Positions 18,190-33,994 of a DNA stretch of 34,674 nt are shown here, one piece after another. The notes beneath the pieces are model-generated. The model searched no databases, was not told where the DNA came from, and was given only the letters and a program-made list of their open reading frames with translations. This DNA is from Candidatus Methylomirabilota bacterium. GTDB taxonomy: Bacteria; Methylomirabilota; Methylomirabilia; Methylomirabilales; CSP1-5. The first letter of the stretch is position 1; each line of letters opens with the position of its first letter. Made by a program: the position numbers and the translations under genes. The stretch spans positions 1 through 34,674 of the forward strand of contig JAPUFX010000041.1 in the NCBI GenBank assembly GCA_027293415.1, read 5' to 3'.

Positions 18190-19137
18190 ATGGGTGGTGA
18201 ACGAAAAACACGGGTGGGTGTCATCGGGGTGGGGCATGTGGGGCAACACCACGCCCGGATCTACCGCGAACTTCCTGGGGTCGAGCTGGCCGGAATCGCC
18301 GATATCGATCCCGCAAGGCTTCAGGAGGTCAAGAGAGTTGCAGAAGCTCCCGTGTTTCAGGATTATCGGGAGCTTTTTGGCCACGTTGAGGCCGTCAGCC
18401 TTGCCGTCCCCACGCATCTGCACGCCCAAATCGCCCGTGAGTGTCTGGATCGAGGGGTCGACGTCCTCGTCGAGAAGCCCATGGCCCAGACCTTAGAGGA
18501 GGCAGAAGAGCTGACGGATCTGGCAAAGCGGCGCGGCCGGATTCTCCAGGTGGGTCACGTAGAGCGCTTCAACGGGGCCGTTCGGGCCCTTCACCGGATT
18601 GTCAAGACACCGGGGTTCATCGAGTGTCACCGCCTCAGCCCTTTCCCTCAGCGTGGCACCGACGTGGACGTGATTCTCGATCTCATGATCCACGACATCG
18701 ACATCATCCTAAGTTTGGTGAAGTCTCCCGTCAGTCAAGTGAACGCCGTCGGGGTGCCCGTCCTGACCGATCGGGTGGACATTTCCAACGCCCGGCTCGA
18801 ATTCGCCTCAGGGTGTGTGGCCAACGTGACCGCCAGCCGGGTGAGTATTGAGCGCCTCCGCAAGATCCGCATCTTTCAACCTGACACGTACATTTCTCTC
18901 GACTACGCTAGTCAAGAGATTACCCTCTTCCGTCGCCTGCCGCCAGACCTCGCGTCCCAGCCGCCCCAGCCTCCACAGATCGTCCGGGAGGAGGTGGTCG
19001 TAGAGAAGGAAGAACCCCTCCGCCTGCAGCTGATGAGCTTCTTGAGTTCCGTTCGGGAGCGCACGCGACCAGAGGTCTCGGGGGAGGAAGCGGTGGAAGC
19101 CCTCCGGGTCGCCTCCCAAATCCTCGCGAAGATATAA
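18190..19137 (+). CDS. Gfo/Idh/MocA-family oxidoreductase, possibly GnnA-like
   Basis: NAD(P)-dependent sugar dehydrogenase. The 315-aa product has an N-terminal Rossmann fold with VGVIGVGHVGQHHARIY (about residues 9-25), the family's EKPMA motif (residues about 97-101, Lys and Pro in the active site) and VGHVERFNGA in the substrate domain. It sits between lpxI and lpxB. In Acidithiobacillus and Leptospira a related enzyme, GnnA, oxidises UDP-GlcNAc at C3 so that GnnB can aminate it, giving amide-linked lipid A chains. No GnnB aminotransferase is in this window, so the GnnA role is inference from context. Confidence 0.8.
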   Translation: MGGERKTRVGVIGVGHVGQHHARIYRELPGVELAGIADIDPARLQEVKRVAEAPVFQDYRELFGHVEAVSLAVPTHLHAQIARECLDRGVDVLVEKPMAQTLEEAEELTDLAKRRGRILQVGHVERFNGAVRALHRIVKTPGFIECHRLSPFPQRGTDVDVILDLMIHDIDIILSLVKSPVSQVNAVGVPVLTDRVDISNARLEFASGCVANVTASRVSIERLRKIRIFQPDTYISLDYASQEITLFRRLPPDLASQPPQPPQIVREEVVVEKEEPLRLQLMSFLSSVRERTRPEVSGEEAVEALRVASQILAKI

Positions 19138-19143
19138 ACAGAT

Positions 19144-19231
19144 GTCCAAAGTCCCAAGTCCCAAGTCCGACGTCGTCAAAAACATAGAGGAGCCCCAGGC
19201 GGTTTTCGACTTTGGACGTTGGACCTTGGAC
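19144..19231. repeat. Heptad-periodic inverted repeat abutting the lpxB start
   Basis: The left arm (19144-19167) steps in sevens through AAGTCCC and AAGTCCC. The right arm (19208-19231) reads ACTTTGG, ACGTTGG, ACCTTGG, AC. The arms pair at 20 of 24 positions, with a loop of about 40 bases. The right arm ends one base before the lpxB ATG (19233), so the fold would cover the ribosome binding region of lpxB. Confidence 0.8.
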
Positions 19232-19232
19232 T

Positions 19233-20384
19233 ATGAATAAGAAGATCTTCATCGTTGCCGGCGAGGCCTCAGGGGATCTCCATGGAGCTGACCTGACACG
19301 GGCCCTCTGCAGCCTAGACCCCGAGGTCACCCTTGTGGGAATGGGAGGGGAGCGGATGCGGGAGGCGGGCGTCCATCTCCTGGTCGATGCTGGGGAGTTA
19401 GCCGCGGTGGGTCTCACCGAGGTCTTCTCTCGCCTTGCGGCGCTGGGACGGGCTTTTCGTAAGCTCCGGAGGGCCCTTGCGGTCCAACGTCCCGACCTTC
19501 TCCTCCTTATTGACTTCCCCGACTTCAACTTTTGGCTCGCTCGGTCCTCCCGGCGGATGGGGATTCCAATCCTCTACTATATTAGCCCTCAAGTCTGGGC
19601 CTGGCGCCGGGGACGGGTCCGGACGCTGAAAAGGCTGGTGGAGAAGGTCGTCGTTATATTTCCGTTTGAGGAAGCCCTCTATCGTGAGGCGGGAGTCCCC
19701 GTCGCTTTTGTCGGACACCCCATGCTGGACCGGCTCCGGGACGTCCCCACCAGAGAGGAAGCCCGCCGCCGACTGGGCTGCGGGGAGTTGGAACTCATCG
19801 TCGGCCTCCTTCCTGGGAGCCGGGAGGGGGAGATTATGCACCACCTTCCCGTGCTCAAAAGGGCAGTGGCCCAGATTGCCCAGGCAAAGCCCGACATCCG
19901 GTTTCTCCTCGCCGTGGCCAATTCTCTTCCCCCCTACCTCGTGGAAACGCTACTCGAGGGGAGCAATTCCCTCATTCGGCCTCTGTACGGACAGACCTAT
20001 CAGGTCATGCGGGCGGCGGATTTGCTGATCACCGCGTCAGGGACGGCAACACTCGAAGCAGGGCTCCTCGGAACCCCGATGATTATTGTCTACCAGGTCT
20101 CTCGGCTCACCTGGTGGGCCGGGAAGCTCTTGGTGGATGTTCCCTCCATCGGGATGGTAAACTTAGTTGCAGGAAGGCGGGTGGTCCCCGAGCTCATCCA
20201 GAATGATTTTACGCCAGAGCGGGTCGCCAGAATCGCCCTGGAGCTGCTGCACAGCCCCGAGGCCCTCGGTGCGATTCGTCAGGAACTGAATGAAGTTCGG
20301 GGAAGGCTAGGGGAGGAGGGGGCCTCTCTTCGTGCCGCCCGAGAGGTGCTGAAGACGCTCCAAGAGACGGAGGACAGGGGTTAG
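19233..20384 (+). CDS. lpxB: Lipid-A-disaccharide synthase
   Basis: Joins UDP-2,3-diacylglucosamine to lipid X to form the lipid A disaccharide; GT19 glycosyltransferase, membrane-associated. ATG 19233 gives 383 aa starting MNKKIFIVAGEASGDLHG, the exact family N-terminus. Other blocks are ISPQVWAWRRGRV, GHPMLD, GLLPGSREGEI and SGTATLEAGLLGTPMIIVYQ. There is no clear Shine-Dalgarno sequence: the bases upstream are the right arm of a heptad hairpin. msbA, often next in such clusters, is absent; the next gene follows after 2 bases. Confidence 0.96.
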   Translation: MNKKIFIVAGEASGDLHGADLTRALCSLDPEVTLVGMGGERMREAGVHLLVDAGELAAVGLTEVFSRLAALGRAFRKLRRALAVQRPDLLLLIDFPDFNFWLARSSRRMGIPILYYISPQVWAWRRGRVRTLKRLVEKVVVIFPFEEALYREAGVPVAFVGHPMLDRLRDVPTREEARRRLGCGELELIVGLLPGSREGEIMHHLPVLKRAVAQIAQAKPDIRFLLAVANSLPPYLVETLLEGSNSLIRPLYGQTYQVMRAADLLITASGTATLEAGLLGTPMIIVYQVSRLTWWAGKLLVDVPSIGMVNLVAGRRVVPELIQNDFTPERVARIALELLHSPEALGAIRQELNEVRGRLGEEGASLRAAREVLKTLQETEDRG

Positions 20385-20386
20385 CG

Positions 20387-21088
20387 GTGGGACGAGGCTG
20401 GAAGCGGTACCGGACGCATCCTGTTGTCCTAGGTGTGCTCACCAGGCTGGCGGCAGTTGTGATGCGTGGACTTTTCCGGTCCCTGCGGGTTGCCTATGTG
20501 GGGCGCGAGGTCCTTGACCGGCTCATTCAGGAGGAGGGGAAGCAAGTCCTCGTGGCCTTCTGGCACGGCCGGCTCCTCATGATGCCCTTTGGGCCCTTTG
20601 GCAATCCCCAGGTTCGCTGGAGCATTATGGTCAGTCGGCACGCGGATGGGGAATATATCAGTCGGGTGGCAGAACGCCTTGGCATTTACTCGGTTCGGGG
20701 ATCGGCCCGCCGGGGCGGTCCCTGGGCACTTTTGGGCATGATTCGGGCCTCCCGGAAGGGGTCTCACCTGGCCATTACACCCGACGGGCCCATCGGCCCC
20801 AGGGAACAGGTAAAGCCAGGGACCATCGAGCTCGCCCGTCTAGCCGGCACGCCGATCATCCCCGTTGCCTTTGCCGCTTCACGGGGGAAGTTCCTGCACA
20901 GCTGGGACCGGTTTCTGATTCCCTATCCTTTTGCACGTGGGGTCTTTGTCTGTGGAGAACCGGTCTTGGTATCACCCAAGGCCGGGTCCGACGAAGTGGA
21001 AAAGGCGCGGGCCGTCTTGGAAGAACACCTTCACCACATTACGGCGGTGGCGGATGCCTATTTTAAACAGCGGCAGTCAGCCATCTGA
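20387..21088 (+). CDS. DUF374-family lysophospholipid acyltransferase-like protein
   Basis: The 233-aa product belongs to the DUF374 family, related to LPLAT acyltransferases and often found beside lpxB, waaA and lpxK. Visible motifs are FWHGRLLMMPF (about residues 51-61), SRHADGEYISRVAERLG, the GSARRGG segment and ITPDGPIGP, the last being the conserved acyltransferase-like block. A short hydrophobic N-terminal stretch suggests membrane attachment. Its role is probably in lipid A or envelope lipid acylation, but the exact reaction of DUF374 is not established. Start is GTG 20387 with ACAGGGG upstream, 2 bases after the lpxB stop. Confidence 0.85.
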   Translation: MGRGWKRYRTHPVVLGVLTRLAAVVMRGLFRSLRVAYVGREVLDRLIQEEGKQVLVAFWHGRLLMMPFGPFGNPQVRWSIMVSRHADGEYISRVAERLGIYSVRGSARRGGPWALLGMIRASRKGSHLAITPDGPIGPREQVKPGTIELARLAGTPIIPVAFAASRGKFLHSWDRFLIPYPFARGVFVCGEPVLVSPKAGSDEVEKARAVLEEHLHHITAVADAYFKQRQSAI

Positions 21089-21147
21089 ATGAGATACGAA
21101 GAAGCAGTTTCCATGGTGACAGCCGACGATGACAGCGGATTGAACCG

Positions 21148-22425
21148 ATGAGAATCCTGTACAGCATCGGACTCTTCTTTGCCATGCTTCCCTACCTACC
21201 CCGCTACCTCCGCCGCATGGGTCGGAGCGGTCCATTCGGTCTCGGGCTCACGGAGCGGCTTGGCCGATACCCGGAGGCGCTCACCGGCCGGCTTCAGGGA
21301 AAGCATCCCCTCTGGCTGCATTCGGTCTCGGTCGGGGAGGCGGTCGTAGGGAGCATTCTGGTTTCAAGGCTCCTTGCGCGGCGTCCCGGACTTCCCATTC
21401 TTGTTTCGACCGTCACCCCGACAGGGCGAAAGGTGGCAGAGGAGCGGATTCCCCAAGCAGAAGCGTTCATCTACTGGCCCCTCGACTTCCCCGGATCGGT
21501 GAACCGGGCCCTCACGGCCGTCGCTCCCCGGCTTGTCCTGCTCACGGAGGGGGAGATTTGGCCAAACTTCCTTGACACCTGCCACCACCGACAGGTTCCG
21601 GTCTTGCTGGTCAATGGTCGGATTTCGCAGCGATCCCTCCGGGGCTATCAGTTCGTCAAGCCGCTATTCCGCCGGGTCTTGGATCAGATCTCCCTCTTCT
21701 GCATGCGAGGGGAGGTCGATGCTGAAAGGATCTTAGCGTTGGGAGCCGATCCTCAGCGAGTCGTCGTGACCGGGAACATCAAGTATGATGACGAAGATGG
21801 AAATAGCCACTTTCCTCCCCATCTTGACGCGGTTGTACGTCTCATGGACGGCCGACCCGTCTGGGTCGCAGGGAGTACCCACCGGGGGGAGGAAAGTATT
21901 ATCCTGCAAGCCTTTCGCCAGGTCAGGAGCGAAGTTCCCGATTCAGTGCTGGTGCTTGCGCCACGTCATCCGGAACGGGTTCCCGAAGTGGAGACGCTCC
22001 TCCGGGAGGCAGATTTTCCCTTTGTCCGCCGGACCCATCTCCCAGAAAATAGTTCCGCGCTTCCGCCGGTCATCCTGGTCGACACGATGGGAGAACTCGG
22101 TCACCTGTATGCCCTCGCCACGGTGGTCTTTGTTGGGGGAAGTCTGGTCCCGGTGGGTGGGCACAATATCCTCGAGCCCGCGAGATATCGGCGGCCCATT
22201 CTGTTTGGTCCCCACATGGATAATTTTGCAGAGGTGGCTGAAGCGTTCCTGGGAGAAGGAATGTCTCACCAGGTTCGTGACACCCGTGAGCTTGTCGCGC
22301 GGGTTGTTGAACTCTTTCGGGATACCGCTGCTGCGCGCGAGATGGGGGAAGCTGCCTATCGGGTGCTGGACAGGAACCGGGGGGCGGCAGAGCGAACCGT
22401 CACCCTGGTCGAAAGGTTTCTGTGA
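21148..22425 (+). CDS. waaA: 3-deoxy-D-manno-octulosonic acid (Kdo) transferase
   Basis: Adds Kdo to lipid IVA at the inner face of the inner membrane; GT30 family with a GT-B fold. The 425-aa product has an N-terminal membrane anchor (about residues 1-20), WLHSVSVGEAVV with the catalytic Glu, LTEGEIWPNFL, GNIKYD, VAGSTHRGEE, LAPRHPER and the donor-site block VGGSLVPVGGHNILEPA. Its stop overlaps the lpxK start (GTGA), indicating coupling. Confidence 0.95.
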   Translation: MRILYSIGLFFAMLPYLPRYLRRMGRSGPFGLGLTERLGRYPEALTGRLQGKHPLWLHSVSVGEAVVGSILVSRLLARRPGLPILVSTVTPTGRKVAEERIPQAEAFIYWPLDFPGSVNRALTAVAPRLVLLTEGEIWPNFLDTCHHRQVPVLLVNGRISQRSLRGYQFVKPLFRRVLDQISLFCMRGEVDAERILALGADPQRVVVTGNIKYDDEDGNSHFPPHLDAVVRLMDGRPVWVAGSTHRGEESIILQAFRQVRSEVPDSVLVLAPRHPERVPEVETLLREADFPFVRRTHLPENSSALPPVILVDTMGELGHLYALATVVFVGGSLVPVGGHNILEPARYRRPILFGPHMDNFAEVAEAFLGEGMSHQVRDTRELVARVVELFRDTAAAREMGEAAYRVLDRNRGAAERTVTLVERFL

Positions 22426-23513
22426 ATCCGGTCGTGTACCGACAATATCTTCGCTGGATCGCCGGTCACGGTCCCTTGGGCCGGCCGGTCCGGGGTGTTC
22501 TGCGTGTTGCTTCCTGGATCTACGGCGTCGGTGTGGTAGGACGCCTCGGCCTTTACCGCACGGGCCTCCTCAGGCGCGAGCGCCTTTCCGCTCGAATCAT
22601 TAGTATTGGAAATTTGACAGCCGGGGGGACTGGGAAGACCCCGTTTGTCATCTTTCTCGTACAGGAAGCCAGGTACCGAGGACTTCGGCCGGCAGTGGTG
22701 GTGAGGGGTTACGGAGGGAGGAAAGAGGGGAAGACGGTAGTTGTTTCAGGGGGGGATACGATTCGACTGGGCTATCCGGAGGTCGGAGATGAGGCGGTGC
22801 TCTTGGCGCGGAAACTTCCGGGGGTTCCCATTCTCATGGCCGCGGATCGCGTTGAGGGGTGCCAGGTGGCGATTCGCGAATTCGGGGCTCAAGTCATCAT
22901 GCTGGACGACGGCTTCCAGCATCTCCGGGTCGAGCGAGACCTCGATATCCTTCTCCTCGACCAAGAAAATCCCTTCGGGTACGGTTATCTTCTACCTCGA
23001 GGGCTCTTGCGGGAGCCAGTGCGGGCCCTAGAGCGGGCAGATCTCGTAGTGGTGACGGCCGCTGGTGACGGGGGAGAACCTTTGGAATTTCCACGTGTGG
23101 TCCGCCCTGCTGGTTCGACGCCCGTGCTTCAAGCGGCATTTACCCCCACCGTCTTGACCAACACGAAGACCGGAGAGACAGTCGATGAGGAGGACCTCCG
23201 CCGCGAGCAAGTCATCGCCTTCTGTGGGATTGCGAACCCGCCGGCCTTTGAGCGGACCCTCCGGTCGCTCGGGATATTTCCCAAGCCTCACCTGATCTTC
23301 CCAGATCATCACCCGTATGATTCCTCGGATCTTTTGGAAATCGCGCAGCGGATGGAGGAGGTGGGGGCGAAGGTTGCCCTGACGACTGAAAAGGACGCCG
23401 TTCGCCTCGAAAAAATGTCCCCCCACTTTCCCATCGTTACTCTAGGGGTGAAACTCGTTCTCACTGTGGGGCACCCGGAGTTCAAGCAATGCTTGGATGC
23501 CTTGTTTCCTTAG
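22422..23513 (+). CDS. lpxK: Tetraacyldisaccharide 4'-kinase
   Basis: Phosphorylates the lipid A disaccharide at the 4' position to give lipid IVA; membrane-bound P-loop kinase. The 363-aa product has Walker A GNLTAGGTGKTPFVIFL (about residues 67-83), VVRGYGG and the catalytic DDGFQH motif. Start GTG 22422 overlaps the waaA stop by 4 bases. The enzyme works before WaaA in the pathway although the gene comes after it. It is followed at once by a GNRA-loop hairpin. Confidence 0.95.
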   Translation: MNPVVYRQYLRWIAGHGPLGRPVRGVLRVASWIYGVGVVGRLGLYRTGLLRRERLSARIISIGNLTAGGTGKTPFVIFLVQEARYRGLRPAVVVRGYGGRKEGKTVVVSGGDTIRLGYPEVGDEAVLLARKLPGVPILMAADRVEGCQVAIREFGAQVIMLDDGFQHLRVERDLDILLLDQENPFGYGYLLPRGLLREPVRALERADLVVVTAAGDGGEPLEFPRVVRPAGSTPVLQAAFTPTVLTNTKTGETVDEEDLRREQVIAFCGIANPPAFERTLRSLGIFPKPHLIFPDHHPYDSSDLLEIAQRMEEVGAKVALTTEKDAVRLEKMSPHFPIVTLGVKLVLTVGHPEFKQCLDALFP

Positions 23514-23531
23514 CAAGACCGCGAGGTCTTG
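23514..23531 (+). other. Perfect hairpin with GCGA tetraloop after lpxK
   Basis: CAAGACC (23514-23520), GCGA loop and GGTCTTG (23525-23531) begin immediately after the lpxK stop codon. A GNRA loop makes the stem stable, but no T-tract follows, so it may be an RNA-stability or attenuation element rather than a terminator. Confidence 0.6.
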
Positions 23532-23563
23532 GCTGACTACTGATACATTTACATGTAAAAGCC

Positions 23564-24643
23564 ATGAAGGTCATCGAGCGAAAGGTGCTTGATCCGGCTC
23601 AGGTCCACCGTATTCTGATCCGGGGTGTGAACTGGGTCGGGGACGCGGTGATGACCACGCCCGCCATCGCCGGGATTCGGAAGACGTTTCCCACTGCAAA
23701 GATCTCTCTTTTGGTGAAGCCGTGGGTTGCAGGGGTCTTTGAAGGGAGCCCGCACATTGACGAGATCCTCCTCTACGACCAGGAAGGCCGTCATGCAGGA
23801 TTGTCCGGATTGCTGCGCCTGGCCCACGAGCTTCGGAACTACCGGTTTGACGTGGCCATCTTGCTTCAGAATGCTTTTGAGGCAGCTCTTCTCACATCCC
23901 TGGCCCGAATCCCCCACCGGGTTGGCTATAAAACCCAGGGAAGAGGCTTTCTCCTCACCAAGGCGGTGCTCCCGGATCATTCGACGAGAGCGCTTCATCA
24001 CGTGGAGTATTACCAGACTCTCCTGAGGGTATCCGGCTGGCGAGAGGGACAGCAGCCGCCGATACTATACCTCAGCAGTGGGGCAGAAGAGAGGGCACAG
24101 GCTCTTCTGGGGGAGGAGGGAGTGCGCTCGGAAGAATCCCTCGTTGCCTTTAGTCCGGGCTCCACCTATGGCTCTGCCAAGTGTTGGCCGGCGGATCGGT
24201 ATGCGGCCCTTGCCGATCACCTGATCGAAGGCCTGGGGGTGAGGATACTACTGACCGGGACTCAGGCCGATGGAGTGGTGGCGAGGGATGTTCGAACCCT
24301 GGCCCGTCATGGGGAGCGCATCATCGATCTCACTGGTCGAACGAATATTCAACTCCTGGCGGCTGTCCTCAAACGCTGCGCCGTATATGTAACAAATGAT
24401 ACTGGGGCAATGCACATCGGGGCGGCTGTCGGTATTCCTCTCGTCGCCATCTTTGGACCCACCGACCCGAGAACTACGTCCCCTGTGGGAAAGCACGTCT
24501 TGCTGAGACACCCGGTCCCGTGTAGCCCCTGCCTCCTCAGAGAATGTCCCATTGACCACCGGTGTATGACGAACATTTCCGTCGATCAATTAACGTCTTC
24601 AGTTATAAATAGTTATAGAGCAATAAATAAAGTTGTACATTAA
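23564..24643 (+). CDS. waaF: ADP-heptose:LPS heptosyltransferase II
   Basis: Adds the second heptose to the LPS inner core; GT9 family. The 359-aa product shows RGVNWVGDAVMTTPAIAGIRK (about residues 22-42), FSPGSTYGSAKCWP, LTGTQAD, DLTGRTNIQLLAAVLKRC and the donor-site segment VTNDTGAMHIGAAVGIPLVAIFGPTDPRTTSP. A Cys cluster near the C-terminus (CSPCLLRECPIDHRCM) is common in bacterial WaaF. The last about 60 bases are unusually AT-rich. It overlaps the start of the next gene if TTG 24633 is used. Confidence 0.93.
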   Translation: MKVIERKVLDPAQVHRILIRGVNWVGDAVMTTPAIAGIRKTFPTAKISLLVKPWVAGVFEGSPHIDEILLYDQEGRHAGLSGLLRLAHELRNYRFDVAILLQNAFEAALLTSLARIPHRVGYKTQGRGFLLTKAVLPDHSTRALHHVEYYQTLLRVSGWREGQQPPILYLSSGAEERAQALLGEEGVRSEESLVAFSPGSTYGSAKCWPADRYAALADHLIEGLGVRILLTGTQADGVVARDVRTLARHGERIIDLTGRTNIQLLAAVLKRCAVYVTNDTGAMHIGAAVGIPLVAIFGPTDPRTTSPVGKHVLLRHPVPCSPCLLRECPIDHRCMTNISVDQLTSSVINSYRAINKVVH

Positions 24644-25229
24644 AGATTCGATCGAGGTGAAAGGCTCACCGGCGATCTTTCTGGACCGGGACGGGACCAT
24701 TAACGAAGACCCAGGGTATCTCACCCATCCCTCCGAGCTCCGCCTTCTTCCAGGTGTCGGGGAGGCGCTCCGACTGCTTCAAGAGCAGGGCTTCCGTCTG
24801 GTGATAGTGAGCAATCAGTCGGGAGTTGCCCGGGGGTTTTTGACAGAATCGATGTTAGAGGAGATTCAAAGAAGTCTTGATACCCTTCTCAAAGGTGAGG
24901 GGGTAACGCTGAGTGGAACATATTACTGCCCCCATCACCCAGAGGGTGCTCCCCCCTACCGGCAGGCATGCGAATGCCGAAAGCCAAAAGGGGGGTTGGT
25001 AGAGCGGGCCGCGAGGGAGCATGGGCTTGATTTGAACCGTTCCTATGTGGTCGGGGATCAGCACATCGATTTCGAACTCGCGCGTGAGATGGGGATGCCG
25101 GCCATCCTTGTCCTCACCGGAAAGGGGCGGCTCAGCCTGGCGTCGGGAGAGATTGAGCCAGATTACATCGCTCCTGACCTTACAGCCGCAGCCAGATGGA
25201 TTCTCCAGAGGCACTCCACTGTTGGGTGA
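24633..25229 (+). CDS. gmhB: D-glycero-beta-D-manno-heptose 1,7-bisphosphate 7-phosphatase
   Basis: HAD-family phosphatase of ADP-heptose synthesis, supplying the substrate of WaaF. The 198-aa product has the nucleophile motif FLDRDGTIN (Asp18 and Asp20), IVSNQSGVARG with the motif II Ser, the GmhB zinc site C-P-H-H with a later CEC (YYCPHHPEG and QACECRKPKGG), and VGDQHIDFELA. Start could be TTG 24633, overlapping waaF, or GTG 24657; neither has a strong ribosome binding site. The stop codon lies at the beginning of a heptad-repeat element. Confidence 0.92.
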   Translation: MYIKDSIEVKGSPAIFLDRDGTINEDPGYLTHPSELRLLPGVGEALRLLQEQGFRLVIVSNQSGVARGFLTESMLEEIQRSLDTLLKGEGVTLSGTYYCPHHPEGAPPYRQACECRKPKGGLVERAAREHGLDLNRSYVVGDQHIDFELAREMGMPAILVLTGKGRLSLASGEIEPDYIAPDLTAAARWILQRHSTVG

Positions 25230-25330
25230 CCGACCACCGACGTCCGATGACCGACCAAGCATGGATCGGGCATCTGTCATCGGACAGCGGTCATCGGTGA
25301 TCTGTCGTCGGTGTACGGTCATCGGTCAAC
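25226..25330. repeat. Heptad-periodic inverted repeat between gmhB and memo
   Basis: The left arm (25226-25255) steps through TGACCGA, CCACCGA, CGTCCGA, TGACCGA. The right arm (about 25276-25328) steps through TCATCGG, ACAGCGG, TCATCGG, TGATCTG, TCGTCGG, TGTACGG, TCATCGG. The arms are complementary in several registers, for example CCGATGACC with GGTCATCGG. The right arm ends just before the GAGGTGA ribosome binding site of the next gene. It is the longest of the four such elements in the window. Confidence 0.8.
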
Positions 25331-25340
25331 GAGGTGAAGA

Positions 25341-26144
25341 ATGATTAGGCAGGCAGCCGTTGCAGGCATGTTTTATCCGGGCGGGACCAAAGCACTCCGC
25401 CGTGAGGTGGAGGATCTACTCCCGACGGGGGAAGAACTGGTTGAGGGAGTGGGGGTCGTGGTCCCTCATGCCGGCTACCTTTACTCTGGCAGGGTCGCCG
25501 GAGCAGTCTACGCCCGGGTACACCCTCCCGAGGCCTGTGTCATTGTTGGCCCCAACCATAGCGGACTGGGGGCCGGGGCGGCTGTCATGACCTCTGGGAC
25601 TTGGGAGACGCCTCTGGGGGAGGAAGCGATCGATACTGAGCTCGCTCGCGCCATCCTGGATCGATCCCGGGTCCTGGAGGAGGATGATCGAGCCCATCGG
25701 AAAGAGCACTCGATCGAAGTCCAACTACCGTTTCTTCAGCTCCTGTTCCCTAAAGTGCCATTTGTCCCCATCTGTCTTTTCAGCCATGAATATGGCGTGT
25801 GCCATGATGTGGGTGAGGCCATGGGGGGGGCGATCCAGGCTTCAGGGAAACGTGTACTCCTGATTGCCAGCACCGACATGAGCCATTACGTTTCGCAGGA
25901 GATGGCCGAGAGAAAAGATCGAATAGCCATCGAAGCCATCGTGAATCTGGACCCCGAACGGCTGCACACCACGGTCCTCCGCGAGCGAATCAGCATGTGC
26001 GGCTTTCACCCGACCACCGCCATGTTGATTGCTGCTAAGGCGCTGGGTGGAACCCGGGCCGAGCTGATTCGCTACGCCACGTCCGGGGATGTCACCAAGG
26101 ACTACAACTCCGTGGTCGGCTATGCCGGCCTGATCATAGACTAG
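25341..26144 (+). CDS. Memo-family protein (AmmeMemoRadiSam system protein B type)
   Basis: The 267-aa product is a full-length Memo homologue, a fold related to LigB-type dioxygenases. It begins IRQAAVAGMFYPG, as the family does. The residues matching the metal-site His, His and Cys of human MEMO1 are present: His43 in PHAGYLYSG, His73 in GPNHSGLG and Cys220 in MCGFHPTTAM. The biochemical role in bacteria is not settled; many homologues accompany AMMECR1 and radical-SAM partners, neither of which is in this window. GAGGTGA is a good ribosome binding site. Its last 75 bases are echoed at 31059-31133, beyond the Grd genes. Confidence 0.9.
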   Translation: MIRQAAVAGMFYPGGTKALRREVEDLLPTGEELVEGVGVVVPHAGYLYSGRVAGAVYARVHPPEACVIVGPNHSGLGAGAAVMTSGTWETPLGEEAIDTELARAILDRSRVLEEDDRAHRKEHSIEVQLPFLQLLFPKVPFVPICLFSHEYGVCHDVGEAMGGAIQASGKRVLLIASTDMSHYVSQEMAERKDRIAIEAIVNLDPERLHTTVLRERISMCGFHPTTAMLIAAKALGGTRAELIRYATSGDVTKDYNSVVGYAGLIID

Positions 26145-26399: not shown

Positions 26400-27846
26400 A
26401 TGCGATTTCCTGTTATTAAAGGGGTCGCCTGCATCCTCGCGCATGTTCCTGACCTGGTCCCTTATGGATCGAAACCCCTCCGAGAGATCCGGAACGCCCC
26501 GAAGTTGCTCGTGGAAGTGAAGCGACACTTGAGAACCTACGGTGAGGCGGTCGAGTACCCCCCCCCAAGCCTTTATCGGCAACCTCCTCCCGGACGACCT
26601 CTGGAACTTCCAACAACCCTGGTATACGCACGTGCTTCACCAGGCACCCCGCTCTGGTCCCTATGGGGAGATCATGCCGGAGGACCAGTTCTACGGCCTG
26701 CTGAAAGCGGCCGATCGGTTCAACCTGGTGCATCTTGAAAAGGGGTTCATGGAGGAGGTGCGTGAGAAACTCCAGGCTCATCCACTTTCGCCCCAAGAGG
26801 ATGTGAATAGCCTGACAGGAGGGATACCTCTCCCGGAGATTGAATCGAGGGTCCGACGGGAAGAAGCCATTTCCCTCCGTGTCGGGGAAAGGATCGTTGG
26901 TTGTGTACTGAGGGATCACGAGGAGGATGAAACCCTGACAGCCGCAATCCTCCTAGAGAACCTGGCGTGCAAGGCGACGGGGGTCCTCGCTCTTCGCCAC
27001 CTGCTTCGCCCGCTTGCTGACGAAGCAAGCGTTTCCCCCCAGGAGATCGATTACATTATCGGAAGTTCAGAAGAGGCGGTCGGAGACCGCTACCAACGGG
27101 GCGGGGGGAGTCTAGGCAAGGCGATTGGGGAGATGGCCGGCCTCATCAAGGCCTCGGGGGCCGATGTGAAGGCCTTCTGTACTTCCCCCATGCATGCGGT
27201 GATCCTCGCGGGGGCCCTTGTCCAGGCCGGGATCTTCAGGAACGTCGCAGTGGTGGCGGGGGGCTCACTCCCCAAATTGGGGATGAAGTTCAAAGCCCAT
27301 CTCAAGAAAGAGATGCCGGTTCTGGAAGATGTGCTGGGGGGAGTCGCCGTCATTGTGGGAACCGATGACAGGAGGAACCCCATTATCAGGACCGATGCTG
27401 TAGGCATGCACGATATTGGCACAGGCACTTCCCAGCAAGCCCTCACCGAGGCTCTTGTTCTGAAGCCGTTGGAGAAGCTCGGGCGGCGGCTGACCGATGT
27501 GGCCAAGTACGCGACCGAGATGCATAACCCCGAGATTACCGTCCCGGCCGGAAGCGGCAACGTTCCCCACACCAACTATCGGATGATTGCTGCCTTAGCT
27601 GCCCTCCGGGGGGAGATTGGTCAGGAGGAGATGGAGCTTTTCGTCCGACGCCATGGGATGCCTGGCTATGCCCCCACGCAGGGTCACATCGCATCGGCAA
27701 TCTGCTTCCTCGGGCAGGCTCGAGATGGGTTGCGGACGAGAAAACTGAGGTGCGCCATGTTTCTCGCCAAGGGAAGCCTCTTTCTGGGGAGGATGACGGA
27801 GATGCCCGATGGGGTCTCCTTCCTCCTCGAACCGAATCCGGCTTAA
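26400..27846 (+). CDS. grdC: Glycine/sarcosine/betaine reductase protein C subunit GrdC (one-base frameshift)
   Basis: In clostridia, protein C takes the acetyl group from selenoprotein A and, with GrdD, releases acetyl phosphate; GrdC is related to FabH-type thiolase-fold enzymes. The start ATG 26400 with GGAGGAG gives MRFPVIKGVACILAHVPDL, matching GrdC N-termini. The frame breaks in a run of nine C (26558-26566): removing one C joins VEYPP to QAFIGNLLPDDLW and on through IVGCVLRDHE, QRGGGSLGKAIGE, FCTSPMHAVI, PTQGHIASA and AKGSLFLGRMTEMPDGVS, about 481 aa in all. Everything else is intact, so a sequencing or assembly error, or slippage of the C-run, is likelier than long-term decay. No grdD follows. 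Confidence 0.85.
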
Positions 27847-27876
27847 GTGTGTTTGACTGGGAAAGGAGGCGATAGA

Positions 27877-28350
27877 ATGGTTCTGAGGGGAAAGAAGGCA
27901 ATCGTCATTGGAGAGCGAGACGGCATTCCTGCCCCTGCCATACGTGAGTGCCTGACGGGTGCTGGTGTCGATGTCATCTACGCCGCCACTGAATGCTTCG
28001 TTTGAACGGCGGCCGGGGCCATGGACTTGGAGAACCAGGGGCGCATTAAGGAGCTTGCCGAGCGGAACGAGAAGCGCGACTTGGTGGTCGTCTTGGGAGC
28101 TTCTGACCCGGAGAGCGTCAAGCTCATCGCCGAGACGGTGACCCTGGGCGATCCAAGCTATGCCGGTGCCCTGGGAGGGGTCCAGTTAGGACTCCCCGTG
28201 TATCACATCCTCGAACCTGAGGTGAAGGAGCAGGTCAATCGTGAGGTCTATCAGCAGCAGGTGGGAATGATGGAGATGGTGCTCGACGTCCCTAAGCTTA
28301 TTGAGCCCCTCAGGAAGATCCGTGAGCAGGTGACGGACGTGGGTGTGTGA
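27877..28350 (+). CDS. grdA: Glycine/sarcosine/betaine reductase selenoprotein A (Sec43)
   Basis: Small redox selenoprotein shared by all Grd systems; it carries the carboxymethyl-selenoether from protein B to protein C and is reduced by thioredoxin. Read with the UGA at 28003-28005 as selenocysteine, the 157-aa product starts [20 protein letters not shown] and contains the diagnostic ECFVU then [11 protein letters not shown], the CxxU redox pair. The C-terminal part [19 protein letters not shown] and GMMEMVLDV also fits the family. Length and Sec position (43) agree with clostridial GrdA. AAAGGAGG upstream is a strong ribosome binding site. A standard gene caller would begin at ATG 28021 and lose the active site. 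Confidence 0.96.
28018..28042 (+). promoter_or_regulatory. Candidate SECIS hairpin in grdA
   Basis: Just after the UGA, GCC (28018-28020) can pair with GGC (28040-28042), and CTTGG (28026-28030) with CCAGG (28035-28039, one G-U), with a five-base bulge on the 5' side and the loop AGAA. The loop starts 26 bases after the UGA, within the range for bacterial SECIS elements. The fold was judged by eye. Confidence 0.4.
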
Positions 28351-28409
28351 GGGGCGGAAGCAGGAGACGCAAGGTTGCAGCAAGAAGACCAGGGAAGGGG
28401 GTCAAAGCG

Positions 28410-29684
28410 GTGAAGCTGGAGTTAGGAATATGTCTCATCAGGGATATGCGGTTCGCGGACACCACCCGCATCAGTGATCACGTCCTCTGTGTGAACAAGA
28501 AGGAGCTCGCAGCACTCCTCCTCGCCGATCGCCGTCTCGGCAGTCTGGAGTTGGAGATTGTCCGTCCCAATGAACGGGAACGAGTTATCCACGTTCTCGA
28601 TGTGATCGAGCCGCGGATCAAGGTTGAGGGGCCTGGAGCGATCTTCCCGGGGATGATCGGCAAACTTGAGCGGGTGGGGGAGGGGCGGAGTCATGTGCTC
28701 AAAGGGGTCACGGTGGTGGAAACCGGGCAAATCCCGGGGGTCCCGGAGGCGCTTTTGGATATGACCGGCCCTGCGGCAGAGTTGGTCCCCTTTGGCCGGA
28801 CCTGTAACCTTGTTCTTATCCCTCAGTTTGCCGAGGGGCTGGAGCGTGTGGAATGTGCGAACGCCATGAAGATGGCGGGGCTGAAGGCCGCAGTCTATCT
28901 GGCCGAAGCGAGCAGGGATCTTCAGCCTGATCACATCGAGATCTATGACCTCCCCCCGCTGCCCGACCTGGATGAAGGGATGAAAGGTCTGCCACGGATC
29001 GCCTATATCTACCAGCTCCAATCGCAAGCCGACCTTTGTGAGCCATTTGTATACGGGGATAACGCCAGGAAGCTGTTACCCACGCTGCTTCATCCGAACG
29101 AGTTGATGGACGGGGCCATCGTCAGCGGCAACTACGAAATGCCCCCCTGCTTCAAGAACGTCACATATACCCACCAGAACAACCCTATTATGCATACGCT
29201 CTATCTCCGCCACAAACGAGACCTCTGCTTTGTCGGGGTGATCGTGATGAACGAGCATCCGACGCTTCATGAGAAGGAGCGATCGGCAGTCATGGCCGCG
29301 AAGCTGGCCAAGGATATCCTGGGGGCCGATGGGGTTATCATCACGAAGGAAGGGGGAGGGCACGCTGATACTGATCTCATGCTCAACTGCCAACGGTGTG
29401 AAGAAGCAGGGGTAAAGACGGTTCTTGTGGTGGATGAGCCGGCTGGTCCGGACGGGACGGCTCCACCTCTTTCTGATGCCTCCTCAGATCGGGCGGATGC
29501 CTTCGTCAGCACGGGGAACAGCAACGAGTCGATTGAGCTTCCCGCGGTGGAACGGGTGATAGGTGGTAAGGCCTTGGCAGGGCTGAACGATCCGCCACAG
29601 GGGGCTTTGAGGGTACCAGTGATGATGATTCCCTCTGCAACCAGCCAGGTTGGCTTTACGAGGCTCACGACAGTGGAGGTATAA
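28410..29684 (+). CDS. grdE: Glycine reductase protein B proprotein GrdE (Tyr at the usual cleavage Cys)
   Basis: In clostridia GrdE is cut into two subunits, the new N-terminal Cys becoming a pyruvoyl group that binds the amine substrate. GTG 28410 (AGGGAAGGGGG upstream) gives 424 aa, close to the usual about 428. Matching blocks are VIEPRIKVEGPGAIFPG, SHVLKGVTVVETG, IAYIYQLQSQ, PTLLHPNELMDGAIVSGN, NPIMHTLYLRH and DGVIITKEGGGHADTDLM. The residue after SGN is Tyr242 (TAC 29133-29135) where the clostridial enzyme has the processed Cys, so pyruvoyl formation is doubtful. The substrate (glycine, sarcosine, betaine or other) cannot be decided from sequence alone. An in-frame GTG at 28347 is a less likely start. 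Confidence 0.92.
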   Translation: MKLELGICLIRDMRFADTTRISDHVLCVNKKELAALLLADRRLGSLELEIVRPNERERVIHVLDVIEPRIKVEGPGAIFPGMIGKLERVGEGRSHVLKGVTVVETGQIPGVPEALLDMTGPAAELVPFGRTCNLVLIPQFAEGLERVECANAMKMAGLKAAVYLAEASRDLQPDHIEIYDLPPLPDLDEGMKGLPRIAYIYQLQSQADLCEPFVYGDNARKLLPTLLHPNELMDGAIVSGNYEMPPCFKNVTYTHQNNPIMHTLYLRHKRDLCFVGVIVMNEHPTLHEKERSAVMAAKLAKDILGADGVIITKEGGGHADTDLMLNCQRCEEAGVKTVLVVDEPAGPDGTAPPLSDASSDRADAFVSTGNSNESIELPAVERVIGGKALAGLNDPPQGALRVPVMMIPSATSQVGFTRLTTVEV

Positions 29685-29688
29685 CATA

Positions 29689-31000
29689 ATGGAGAATCTG
29701 AGGATTGTTCATTTCATGAATCAATTCTTCGGAGGGATTGGCGGGGAGGAGATGGCTCACGTTCCGCCTCAATCCGGAAAGGGCCCAATTGGGCCTGGAG
29801 CGGTGCTTCAGGAGGTCTTGGGAAAGCAGGGGCAGGTTGTAGGGAACGGTAATCTGTGGCGATAACTACTTTGCTGAAGATATGGAAAAGGCGGCCCATG
29901 AGGTTCTTCGCCTTATCGAATCCTACCAGCCCGATCTCCTCGTCGCCGGTCCGGCCTTTAACGCGGGCCGCTACGGCCCGGCCTGCGGCAAGGTCTGCCA
30001 CGTGGTACAGGAACAACTTGGGATTCCTGCGGTCACCGGCCTGTACCAGGAGAATCCCGGGGTGGACCTCTTCCGGCGGAGCACATATATCGTCAAGACG
30101 GCGAATAGTGCCCAGGGGATGCGCGAGGCGATGACAAACATGGTAAAGCTGGCTCTGAAGCTTCATGCTAGGGAGCAGCTGGGGACCCCGGAGGAGGAGG
30201 GGCTCATCTCAAGAGGTGTGAAGAAGAACCGCATCGCCGAGCATCTTGCCTCGGAGCGGGCGGTGGATCTCCTTCTCAAAAAGATCAAAGGGGAGCCCTA
30301 CCGGTCCGAGATGCGGCTGCCCAGATTCGAGAAGGTTCCTCCGGCCCCGCCGGTTGAAGAGCTTTCGAAGGCCCTCATCGCCATCGTCGTCGAGGGGGGA
30401 CTGGTGCCGCCTGATAACCCCGATCGGATCGAGTCAGCTCGGGCCACGCGTTACGCCAAGTATCCGATCGCGGGTAAAGATACCCTCACGCAGGGCGAGT
30501 TTGCTCCCGTAAGCGGCGGCTTCGAAAAGGCATTTGGGGCCCAGAACCCGAACCGGCTTTGCCCGGTGGATGTTCTCCGAGAGCTGGAGAGGGAAAAACG
30601 CATCGGCACGCTCTACGACTACTTCTACACGACGACCGGCTTCGCCACGAGCTTGGCGAGCGCCAAGCAGATGGGGGAGGGGATCGCGAAAGAGGTCAAG
30701 GAAGCCCAGGTCGATGCGGTCCTCCTTGTCTCCACGTGAGGGACGGGCACGCGCTGCGGGGCAGTGCTCACGCGAGAGCTGGAGCGAGCCGGGATTCCCA
30801 CCGTGCAGCTTTGTACGATTACCTCCATTGCGACTACGGTCGGGGCGAATCGTATCGTCCCGGCCAATGGGATCCCGTATCCGCTCGGCGATCCCAGTTT
30901 GCCTCCAGCAAAAGAGAGGCAGTTACGGCGGGCATTGGTCGAGAAGGCCCTCGAGGCCCTCTGTGCTCGGGTGGAGGGACAAGAGATCTTTACAACGTAG
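29689..31000 (+). CDS. grdB: Glycine reductase protein B selenoprotein GrdB (Sec350; one-base frameshift)
   Basis: Selenoprotein subunit of the substrate-specific protein B; its Sec attacks the substrate to form the carboxymethyl-selenoether. ATG 29689 (GTGGAGGT upstream) starts MENLRIVHFMNQFFGGIGGEE. One extra base near 29842-29846 shifts the frame; removing it restores GTVICGDNYFAED and the rest, including LVAGPAFNAGRYGPACG and GLYQENPGVDLFR. The UGA at 30737-30739 lies in VSTUGTGTRCGAV and is read as Sec350; after it come TVGANRIVP and PLGDPSLPPAKERQLRR up to TAG 30998-31000. Corrected length is 436 aa, the length of clostridial GrdB, and Sec350 is the expected position. Standard calling would split it into three pieces. 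Confidence 0.92.
30745..30769 (+). promoter_or_regulatory. Candidate SECIS hairpin in grdB
   Basis: GGGCAC (30745-30750) pairs with GTGCTC (30764-30769, one G-U); a GCGC bulge lies on the 5' side; TGC (30755-30757) pairs with GCA (30761-30763) around a GGG loop. The G-rich apical loop sits 19-21 bases after the UGA, close to the geometry of the E. coli fdhF element. Confidence 0.5.
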
Positions 31001-31058
31001 GGGCAACAAGTTATCCAAAGACAACAATGATCCAAGACCACACTTGACCCGATGCGAT

Positions 31059-31133
31059 CGCTACGCGGCGTCGGGGGATGTCATCAAAGACTACACCTCC
31101 GTGGTCGGCTATGCCGGCTTCATCATTCAATAG
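31059..31133 (+). pseudogene. Remnant of a second Memo-family gene (3' end only)
   Basis: These 75 bases encode RYAASGDVIKDYTSVVGYAG then FIIQ and a stop. They match the last 75 bases of the intact Memo gene (26070-26144) at 64 of 75 positions, 19 of 24 residues. Upstream of 31059 the resemblance ends, and no Memo start lies nearby. It is either the tail of a degraded paralogue or a scar of recombination that placed the grd genes here. Confidence 0.8.
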
Positions 31134-31245: not shown

Positions 31246-32721
31246 ATGAGATCGTACCTGAAAAGACTGCTATTCGTCTTATGTGGTGGATTGATGATCG
31301 TCGTCTCTGTAGTGTTGATAAAGACATTACGCTTTACTTCTCGGCAGCTAGAGGTCGATCCGCAGCCGCGGGTGGCGATTAATGGAGAAAAAATCGCCGA
31401 ATACCTGTCAAACGCTATCCAGTTCAGGACCATCTCATATGGGGATACGGGACAATTTGATGGCAAGGAATTCTCAAGCTTCCATCGATATCTCGAACAG
31501 AGGTTTCCCAAGGTTCATTCCACGCTCATTAAGGAAGTTGTGGGAGGGTACAGTCTTCTCTATACGTGGAAAGGCCAAACAGGGGGTACGAAGCCGATTC
31601 TCCTCATGGGTCATATGGACGTCGTACCTGTCGAACCTGGCACGGAAGACAATTGGACCCATCCCCCTTTTGGGGGGCGTATCGCCAGTGGCTACATTTG
31701 GGGCAGAGGGGCCATGGATGATAAGGTTAGCGTTCTGGGTATGCTTGAAGCCGTAGAAATGCTGCTGACAGAAGGATTCCATCCCTCTCGCACAGTGTAC
31801 CTTGCCTTTGGCCACGATGAAGAGGTCGGGGGAGCAATGGGAGCTGCCAAGATTGCCAGCCTTTTGCGTTCCAGAGGGGTCGAATTAGAGTACATTCTCG
31901 ACGAGGGGGGTGCCATCACTCACGGAATATTGCCGGGGGTTTCCGCTCCCGTTGCTCTGGTAGGGATCGCCGAGAAGGGCTATGTGAGTGTCGAGCTCGC
32001 AGTGCAGAGTAAAGGAGGGCACTCCTCCATGCCCCCAAAGCATACTGCGATTGGCATCCTCAGTACTGCCGTACATAATCTCGAGCGCAATCAGTTCCCA
32101 GCAGAAATCAGAGGGGCAACGGGAAAACTGTTCGAGTATGTGGGGCCAGAAATGCCCTTTCCCGAAAGGATGGTATTTGCCAACCTCTGGCTTTTTGGGT
32201 GGCTGGTCGAGCGCCAGCTTGTGGCATCGTCTTGGACAAACGCTCTGGTCCGGACCACCACGGCAGCGACGATGTTTGAGAGTGGGGTCAAAGAGAATGT
32301 ATTGCCGACAAAGGCAAAGGCGGTGATCAATTTTCGCATTCTTCCTGGCGAGAGTGTTCAGAGTGTGATCGATCATGTCCGCAAGACGATTGGAGATGCA
32401 CGGGTCAAGATTACACCCGTGAAGAAAGTGCTGAGTGAACCGTCTGCCGTATCGGTCCCGGAGTCATCCAGCTTTGAAAATCTTCATCGGACAATTCGGC
32501 AGATTTTTCCGGATGCCATAGTCGCTCCCTGGCTTGTTGTCGGAGCGACGGACTCCAGACATTACGCAAAGCTAAGCGGCAATATATACCGGTTTGTTCC
32601 AATAAGGATGGATCCTGGTGATACACGTCGATTTCATGGGACCGATGAGCGTATTTCAGTTGACAACTACGAGAACTGCGTCAGATTCTTTATGCAACTC
32701 ATCCGTAATTCCCATTCGTAG
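31246..32721 (+). CDS. M20-family metallopeptidase (PM20D1-like), membrane-anchored
   Basis: Zinc-dependent amidohydrolase/carboxypeptidase. The 491-aa product has an N-terminal membrane anchor or signal (about residues 5-26). Metal-site residues are visible: His123 in MGHMDVVPV, Asp158 in GAMDDK, Glu-Glu in GHDEEVGG (the general base and a ligand) and a late His in RFHGTDERIS. The lid domain includes GGHSSMPP. Overall wording is closest to PM20D1-type carboxypeptidases, which act on N-acyl amino acids and short peptides; the true substrate is unknown. The ribosome binding site is weak (AAGG). Base composition is clearly lower in GC than the flanking genes, hinting at transfer. Confidence 0.9.
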   Translation: MRSYLKRLLFVLCGGLMIVVSVVLIKTLRFTSRQLEVDPQPRVAINGEKIAEYLSNAIQFRTISYGDTGQFDGKEFSSFHRYLEQRFPKVHSTLIKEVVGGYSLLYTWKGQTGGTKPILLMGHMDVVPVEPGTEDNWTHPPFGGRIASGYIWGRGAMDDKVSVLGMLEAVEMLLTEGFHPSRTVYLAFGHDEEVGGAMGAAKIASLLRSRGVELEYILDEGGAITHGILPGVSAPVALVGIAEKGYVSVELAVQSKGGHSSMPPKHTAIGILSTAVHNLERNQFPAEIRGATGKLFEYVGPEMPFPERMVFANLWLFGWLVERQLVASSWTNALVRTTTAATMFESGVKENVLPTKAKAVINFRILPGESVQSVIDHVRKTIGDARVKITPVKKVLSEPSAVSVPESSSFENLHRTIRQIFPDAIVAPWLVVGATDSRHYAKLSGNIYRFVPIRMDPGDTRRFHGTDERISVDNYENCVRFFMQLIRNSHS

Positions 32722-32998
32722 TCCATTTGCTCTGCATTGTGACTGTCCGTGATTCCATCTAAAGGTTCGGTGAGGAATCTTGCCTGCTGATAGCGCACAT
32801 ACGAAGAGCAATCACGAAGCGTTGCCATACTGGGTGAGACTCATCCAAGACGGCTTTGTCGTTTGGCGCCGCCGCCCGCCGGGAGATCAGGAGGCATGAA
32901 CGTTGGTGTCCGATCTTGCACTCCAAGGATGCGTCTGTTACCCTCATGTTTCGGTTTCTTGCCCCCAGAACCTCAAGCTGTAGAGGTGTGAGAACATC
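32722..32998. other. Gap before the beta-propeller gene
   Basis: 277 bases with no supported gene on either strand. The large minus-strand ORF that crosses it (32759-33721) is a shadow of the beta-propeller gene. No clear promoter or terminator was seen. Confidence 0.4.
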
Positions 32999-33994
32999 AT
33001 GCGTTATGTCCGTGGCAGCGTCACCGTGGGCCTCATCATGGTAATCGCAGGATCGGCTTGGGCTGGCGGCTCGAACTACGGCATCACGCCAGGTGCAAGA
33101 CCGGAGATCGAAGGGCGGATCTCCGAGTGGAAGGTGCCCACGCCGATGTTCGCCCGCGATCCCGCCCCCGGGCCAGACGGCATGATCTACATCACCGTCA
33201 TGTACGCGAACAAAATTGCGCGGTTTGACCCTCTCACGGAGACATTCACAGAGTGGGAACTGCCCGCACGAGCGAGGCCCCACGGCCTCCTCGTGGATTG
33301 GGACGGCCAGGTCTGGTATACGGGGAACGGCAATGGCACGATTGGCCAGCTGGATCCAACCACGGGAAGGGTGGTCGAGCACAAGGTGCCTTCCGGTGGC
33401 GACCCGCACACGCTGGTTATCGATGAATGGGGCATCATTTGGTTCACGGAGCAGCACGGGAATCGGATCGGCCGGCTGGACACCCGTACCGGGATGATGA
33501 CCGAGTTCGAAGCCTCTGGGCGCCCCTATGGGCTTGCTCTTGATAAGGCGGGCAATGTCTGGTTCTGCGAACTTGGCGCCGGCAAGCTGGGTAAGCTGGA
33601 TCCGAAGACGGGCACGATCACTGAAGTGGTCCTTGGGAAAGGCTGGGCGCCGCGCCGCATGGCCGCATCGCCCGACGGTTCGCTCTGGGTCACGCTCTTC
33701 GGCAAGGGTTCCCTGCTCCACTTCGACCCCGTTGCCGAAAAACTCCTTAAAGAGTACCCATTACCGGCCGGGCGCAGCGGAGGCCCCTACGCCGTGACGG
33801 TGGACGGAGCCGGCATGGTTTGGGCCAACGAGTTCTACAGCAATACCGTTGTGCGATTGGACCCAACTACGGGCAGGATCCGGGTCTTTACATTGCCATC
33901 GAGAGGTCTCGGCATCCGCAAAATGGTTGTGGACGCCGAGGGAAGACTCTGGTACATGGGCAGCCATAATGGTCATCTCGGCGTCATCGAGTAG
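32999..33994 (+). CDS. Secreted Vgb-like beta-propeller (streptogramin lyase family)
   Basis: The 331-aa product starts with a signal peptide (MRYVRGSVTVGLIMVIAGSAWA, cut before GG at about residue 23), so it acts in the periplasm or outside. The rest is a row of about seven repeats of roughly 40 residues, each with a pattern like GxVWYTG-NGTIGQLDPTTGRV or GNVWFCEL-GKLGKLDPKTGTI, the blades of a propeller. It resembles virginiamycin B lyase, but this large family includes many proteins without that activity; antibiotic inactivation should not be assumed. GAGGTG upstream is a distant ribosome binding site. The next gene, also for a secreted protein, starts 43 bases later. Confidence 0.85.
   Translation: MRYVRGSVTVGLIMVIAGSAWAGGSNYGITPGARPEIEGRISEWKVPTPMFARDPAPGPDGMIYITVMYANKIARFDPLTETFTEWELPARARPHGLLVDWDGQVWYTGNGNGTIGQLDPTTGRVVEHKVPSGGDPHTLVIDEWGIIWFTEQHGNRIGRLDTRTGMMTEFEASGRPYGLALDKAGNVWFCELGAGKLGKLDPKTGTITEVVLGKGWAPRRMAASPDGSLWVTLFGKGSLLHFDPVAEKLLKEYPLPAGRSGGPYAVTVDGAGMVWANEFYSNTVVRLDPTTGRIRVFTLPSRGLGIRKMVVDAEGRLWYMGSHNGHLGVIE

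Follow-up and report, generated by a model that had tools for sequence, protein, structure and literature searches.

A Grd-type selenoprotein cassette of Methylomirabilota that lacks GrdD and the pyruvoyl cysteine of component B

Grd systems, which gut clostridia use to reduce glycine, are understood to yield acetyl phosphate, and through it ATP, from glycine, sarcosine or betaine. The occurrence of four grd homologues in the genome of an uncultured environmental bacterium of the phylum Methylomirabilota raises the question of whether they encode such a route, or a variant that acts on another substrate and disposes of the product in another way. The DNA considered here, called the window, has a length of 34,674 nucleotides and makes up the entire contig C41 of a draft genome of 2.75 Mb (221 contigs, 96.5% complete). 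The favored reading, to which we assign a probability of roughly 55%, is that the window cassette encodes a selenoenzyme of the Grd type belonging to a subtype without GrdD, which would cleave its substrate reductively without a Schiff base and release the acyl group without GrdD.

The cassette extends from 26400 to 31000 and consists of grdC, grdA, grdE and grdB, in this order, close-packed and all on the plus strand; the identity and the order of the four genes, proposed in the original prediction, are borne out by the coordinates and by matches to the family models used on the window genes (Pfam and NCBIfam). The first gene, grdC (26400-27846), encodes the β-subunit of component C, a KAS III/thiolase-like protein, with a score of 592 bits for NF040746 (cut-off 450) and a further match to PF19364; its frame is broken in a run of nine Cs, and the in-frame 3′ part corresponds to 26542-27846. 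The second, grdA (27877-28350), encodes selenoprotein A (PF04723, 227 bits; NF040748, 232 bits with a cut-off of 130), a GrdA of the Grd-complex kind with its CxxU motif. Component B is represented by both its subunits: grdE (28410-29684, GTG start) encodes the α-subunit (PF09338, 482 bits), and grdB (29689-31000) the β-subunit, a selenoprotein with a UGA-coded selenocysteine (PF07355, 388 bits; TIGR01918, 487 bits with a cut-off of 65). Each of the four genes is preceded by a Shine-Dalgarno-like sequence, GGAGG before the ATG of grdC at 26400, AAGGAGG for grdA, and a weaker one ahead of grdE; no trx genes occur in the cassette. A Grd-type cassette in a diderm, arranged otherwise than in Firmicutes, is thus supported, and Grd systems beyond Firmicutes were already known (PMC9751293).

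Regarding selenocysteine (Sec), the positions first proposed, residue 43 of GrdA and residue 350 of GrdB, are right: the TGA at 28003-28005 lies in CFVU, that at 30737-30739 lies in STUGTGTRC (residue 350 after the removal of one base to correct the frame), and in the alignments both UGAs match Sec in every homologue compared. Every one of the phylum's 16 grdA genes contains exactly one in-frame TGA. The Sec insertion machinery was found in the same genome (selA, selB and selC), and selA occurs in 84 of the 95 phylum genomes, so that Sec decoding is general in the phylum. Hairpins fitting the bacterial SECIS pattern follow both UGAs, yet they are no better than those of shuffled sequence, and SECIS was dropped as an independent proof of Sec.

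As for the surroundings, the cassette is bordered on the left by a Memo-like gene of the AmmeMemoRadiSam B family (25341-26144, plus strand; PF01875, TIGR04336) and on the right by a gene for an M20 family peptidase (31246-32721, plus strand; PF01546). The last ∼85 bp of Memo are repeated at 31049-31133 on the plus strand; this second copy of the 3′ end aligns to 26059-26144, and a protein search recovers it too, with 79% identity over 24 aa. Among the seven genomes of the genus, grdA is present in that of the window only, and the sister genome G010 has an empty site, with Memo followed directly by M20. In a blastn comparison, G010 and the window share 97.8% DNA identity over 18262-26143, which are the 7.9 kb to the left up to the end of Memo (97% identical as a protein), and the match resumes at window position 31058; the empty site and the duplicated Memo 3′ end place the cassette and the scar of its insertion exactly at the 3′ end of Memo. 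The M20 gene has 83% DNA identity to G010, compared to 97.8% left of the cassette, and the value is back to 94.5% from 32864 on; this pattern would fit a joint import of the grd genes and M20, through recombination with DNA of a related donor. Composition was rejected as a sign of foreign origin, since the cassette resembles the rest of the genome. A contaminant contig of clostridial origin was likewise rejected on account of the empty site and of both flanks, the left 7.9 kb and the right one, which match the sister species. Of the neighbors that had been pointed out as notable, the LPS genes are incidental, because they are conserved with sister species that have no cassette. Further to the right, an open reading frame at 32759-33721 (minus strand) overlaps one at 32999-33994 (plus strand), and a family match exists for the latter only (virginiamycin B lyase-like, PF24684).

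The insertion could be read as a non-functional import, recently acquired and being lost, with the frameshifts and the divergent GrdB pocket as its decay; this appears unlikely. As assembled, grdC has a 1-bp frameshift in the C9 run at 26558-26566, where frame and homologue length fit C10, and grdB has another, with one extra G near 29842; given these, the window copy may be broken or mis-assembled, and the corrected lengths first taken to fit working proteins conceal both lesions. Two frameshifts in 4.4 kb are a mild excess, given that about 0-2 single-base frameshifts were counted in the ∼33 kb of coding sequence shared elsewhere with the sister genome; decay would also agree with sister genomes that lack the genes, and could explain, instead of a new substrate, the loss of the conserved motif histidine of GrdB, which among 65 sequences compared is absent from the window protein only and present in the other 64. 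Against decay, no further in-frame stops occur in the four cassette genes (∼4.4 kb), and the Sec codons, CxxU, the invariant residues of GrdC and the Shine-Dalgarno sequences are intact; moreover, the C9 run is longer than any other C/G run in the contig, so that slippage or an assembly error is likely there. Finally, the lack of GrdD, of a C-terminal GrdC tail and of the pyruvoyl Cys of GrdE, treated below, is found also in relatives with intact genes, and hence does not derive from decay of the window copy. In another member of the phylum (G063, L050:2989-4329), grdC is split into three pieces through frame changes.

The main result, which extends past the window, concerns component C. The absence of grdD, already seen in the original prediction, is confirmed, but it is phylum-wide instead of local and is paired with the loss of the GrdC tail: no GrdD exceeds the model cut-off in any of the 95 phylum genomes, including that of the window and all 16 with grdA. 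The same model gives 573-576 bits in two of two Clostridia taken as positive controls, and it finds GrdD over the cut-off in 31 of the 34 Firmicutes genomes selected because they carry grdB, besides one partial match at a contig end; comparison of 0/16 with 31/34 gives a Fisher p of about 2e-10, relatedness being ignored. A diverged GrdD could escape in any one draft genome, but hardly in all 16. Of the acetyl-phosphate-forming component C, composed of GrdC and GrdD, the window therefore has GrdC, while GrdD is absent from the genome and the phylum. In turn, the GrdC of the window and every readable phylum GrdC stop 12-20 residues past the sequence KGSLFLGRMT, whereas the five GrdD-linked GrdC compared (readable end, no fusion) run 45-49 residues past it with a helix-like tail; about 30 residues present in these five are thus missing. 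Both groups have one invariant Cys, found in FCTSPMHA in the window; in alignments it matches the region of the KAS III active site.

Some observations concern GrdC and GrdD outside the phylum. In the Firmicutes genome G244 (L160:877-3408), grdC and grdD are fused, the frame continuing through the KGSLFLGRMT end into GrdD, and the very long GrdD frame of G174 (953 aa) is possibly another fusion. Another Firmicutes genome, G107 (C20; L149 / L169), which is among the exceptions in the set of 34, has grdA, a divergent grdC, grdB and grdE, with no GrdD over the cut-off; it may be an independent GrdD-less system, in which case the state would not be confined to Methylomirabilota. One scan of viral contigs gave no GrdD-less GrdC beyond the phylum, a scan of contigs from named genomes with GrdE yielded two loci for component B, both clostridial, and a limited literature search found no description of a missing GrdD or GrdC tail.

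PlsX is a housekeeping protein and a distant homologue of GrdD. It is conceivable, though quite unlikely, that the cassette is an ordinary Grd system in which PlsX or Pta replaces GrdD for the formation of acetyl phosphate, with acetate kinase making ATP. Nearly all phylum genomes do have a weak match to the GrdD model (19-33 bits, profile positions ∼115-227), as expected for PlsX, and the window's genome has three acetate kinase genes; the same weak match occurs in half (7 of 14) of the control genomes, which have no Grd. Conversely, three genomes with grdA, namely that of the window, G027 and G052, have no weak GrdD-model match at all; each ackA adjoins a phosphoketolase-like gene, or is two genes from it, and is explained without Grd; and the loss of the GrdC tail speaks against a GrdD-like partner. 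The three acetate kinase genes are located in G000:C150, C2 and C219 (L166, L167 and L168, respectively), and in the other six genomes of the genus the sole match is one in the sister G010.

Turning to component B, in the known enzyme the pyruvoyl group activates the substrate, the selenolate of GrdB takes the carboxymethyl group, the Sec of GrdA carries it, and GrdC with GrdD converts it into acetyl phosphate (PMC9908766, PMC10298544); the pyruvoyl processing of GrdE and the formation of acetyl phosphate by GrdC and GrdD are both published (PMC9908766). The Cys of SGNC, present in the glycine and sarcosine types compared, would be the pyruvoyl precursor, judging from the published Cys-derived cofactor and the alignment; in the window it is replaced by Tyr (SGNYEMPPC), and it is missing in every phylum GrdE that is readable at that site. 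GrdE-type subunits without the GrdE cysteines are known for the betaine and fluoroacetate types, and farB has no CxxC (PMC10838667). The GrdB pocket differs as well: the glycine type has AHGGxD...TxGNxTxV and the sarcosine protein GrdF has IHGGYDR...TTGTGT (PMC9751293), while the window protein reads VSGGFEK ... TTTGFATS(L), with the glycine (AHGGYDP, TVGNGT), sarcosine (IHGGYDR, TTGTGT) and betaine (IHAGFDP, TVGTGTT) motifs all absent, and UxxGxxC in place of UxxCxxC. No substrate-specific model reaches its cut-off, the GrdB values being those of the in-frame part only: 459 of 602 bits for the glycine equivalog TIGR01917 (372 residues), 490 of 800 for the sarcosine model NF040794, 419 of 775 for the betaine GrdH equivalog NF040795, and, for GrdE, 208 against 675 for the FarE equivalog NF053623. 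No solved structure was matched by sequence for either GrdE or GrdB. That the cassette is a true glycine reductase working in the reductive glycine pathway, for which Methylomirabilota grdB transcripts were counted in wetland metatranscriptomes (PMC11784365), is very unlikely in view of the missing pyruvoyl Cys, AHGGYDP/TVGNGT motifs and GrdD, and of the glycine equivalog score of this in-frame part.

In the concatenated GrdB and GrdE tree, the window forms a lone deep branch outside the clade of the glycine, sarcosine and betaine types, and the component B proteins of other phylum members are placed on three further branches. With the missing pyruvoyl Cys and the absent pocket motifs, this position probably supports the idea, present from the start, of a variant with another substrate. 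For GrdC, the window and phylum sequences fall together in a single clade (bootstrap 81); for GrdA, the corresponding grouping is weakly supported (bootstrap 57). Relatives have the orders E-B-C-A, E-B-gap-C-A, B-E-C-A and C-A-B-E, with C directly ahead of A in nearly every readable cassette; the shared GrdC clade (less clearly that of GrdA) and the scattered B branches indicate that a common C-A core is joined to varying B modules, and in varying order, among relatives. Gene order was therefore rejected as a notable feature: the C-A-E-B arrangement, first taken as significant, means little, and what stays constant is the C-A pair. Compared with the window, the cassettes of the other 15 Methylomirabilota genomes share the GrdC grouping, C before A, and the lack of GrdD, of the tail and of the GrdE pyruvoyl Cys, but their component B comes from at least three other branches, their order is E-B-C-A, B-E-C-A or C-A-B-E, and some have additional genes. 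These are a DsbA-like thioredoxin-fold gene directly behind grdB (L045:3577-4206, L052:12417-13046) and, in one relative, an ABC transporter between B and C; the former could donate electrons instead of trxA, and the latter may supply substrate.

With respect to known systems, clostridial Grd (Peptoclostridium acidaminophilum, Acetoanaerobium) has homologous GrdA (CxxU), GrdB (Sec), GrdE and GrdC, and two UGA-coded selenoproteins per cluster; the window departs from it in having no GrdD, no GrdC tail, no pyruvoyl Cys, UxxGxxC instead of UxxCxxC, other pocket motifs, another gene order, and no trx genes in the cassette. The component B of betaine reductase (GrdH/GrdI, Enterococcus gilvus) similarly has no pyruvoyl Cys, with SGSF in GrdI where the window has SGNY; however, its pocket is IHAGFDP/ATVGTGTT against VSGGFEK/TTTGFATS, the betaine types are inside the clade from which the window is excluded, and E. 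gilvus has grdD. Fluoroacetate reductase (farEB, Cloacibacillus) shares with the window a B selenoprotein with no Cys after Sec and an E subunit devoid of the pyruvoyl Cys, and it is thought to use the grdA and component C of its host (PMC10838667); apart from the low FarE score, the window cassette differs from it in having neither a transporter nor a radical SAM gene.

The joint absence of the pyruvoyl Cys and of GrdD points to a substrate that is handled without a Schiff base and to an acyl exit other than acetyl phosphate. According to the favored GrdD-less reading, a substrate of the type X-CH2-COO−, or a close analogue, would bind component B (GrdB and GrdE), and the GrdB selenolate would attack the CH2 carbon directly and expel X, since an amine cannot be bound as a Schiff base when the pyruvoyl Cys is missing. 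As in the known enzyme, the Sec of GrdA would then take up the carboxymethyl group, which would next form an acyl thioester with the Cys of GrdC that is conserved and resembles an active-site residue. With neither GrdD nor the GrdC tail, no acetyl phosphate is expected from the complex; the acyl group would leave to another acceptor or by water, and our guess at the acceptor is CoA. The cassette itself would have arrived in one piece at the Memo 3′ end, its C-A core being one that relatives pair with other B modules. We know of no biochemistry for any GrdD-less complex.

Extension of this reading to the phylum is tentative: it is possible that Methylomirabilota harbor a Grd subtype with no acetyl-phosphate step, in which the acyl group goes from GrdC to CoA or biosynthesis and exchangeable B modules reduce substrates outside the glycine, sarcosine and betaine set, in hosts not known as amino-acid fermenters. 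The gene grdB is used as a marker for glycine reduction and the reductive glycine pathway, and Methylomirabilota are among its main wetland carriers (PMC11784365); if the phylum cassettes are devoid of GrdD and of the glycine-specific residues, this marker is misread in Methylomirabilota, and a selenoenzyme family becomes available for experiments on its substrates and acyl acceptor. With regard to the hosts, pmoA-type genes occur in 10 of the 15 members of one family of the same order as the genome of the window, one of these members being a single contig of 2.8 Mb; this distribution is one basis for placing the genome in Methylomirabilota (NC10).

A review mentions 63 predicted selenoprotein genes in one Methylomirabilota genome (PMC13188914), and the genome of the window has a second selenoprotein gene on another contig, G000:C30 (L003:1300-2139, minus strand), which encodes a PrdB-like protein with an in-frame TGA in TPTUGLCNQ; it scores 168 bits for TIGR04483, under the cut-off of 300, and genes for a metallophosphoesterase-like and a radical SAM protein are nearby.
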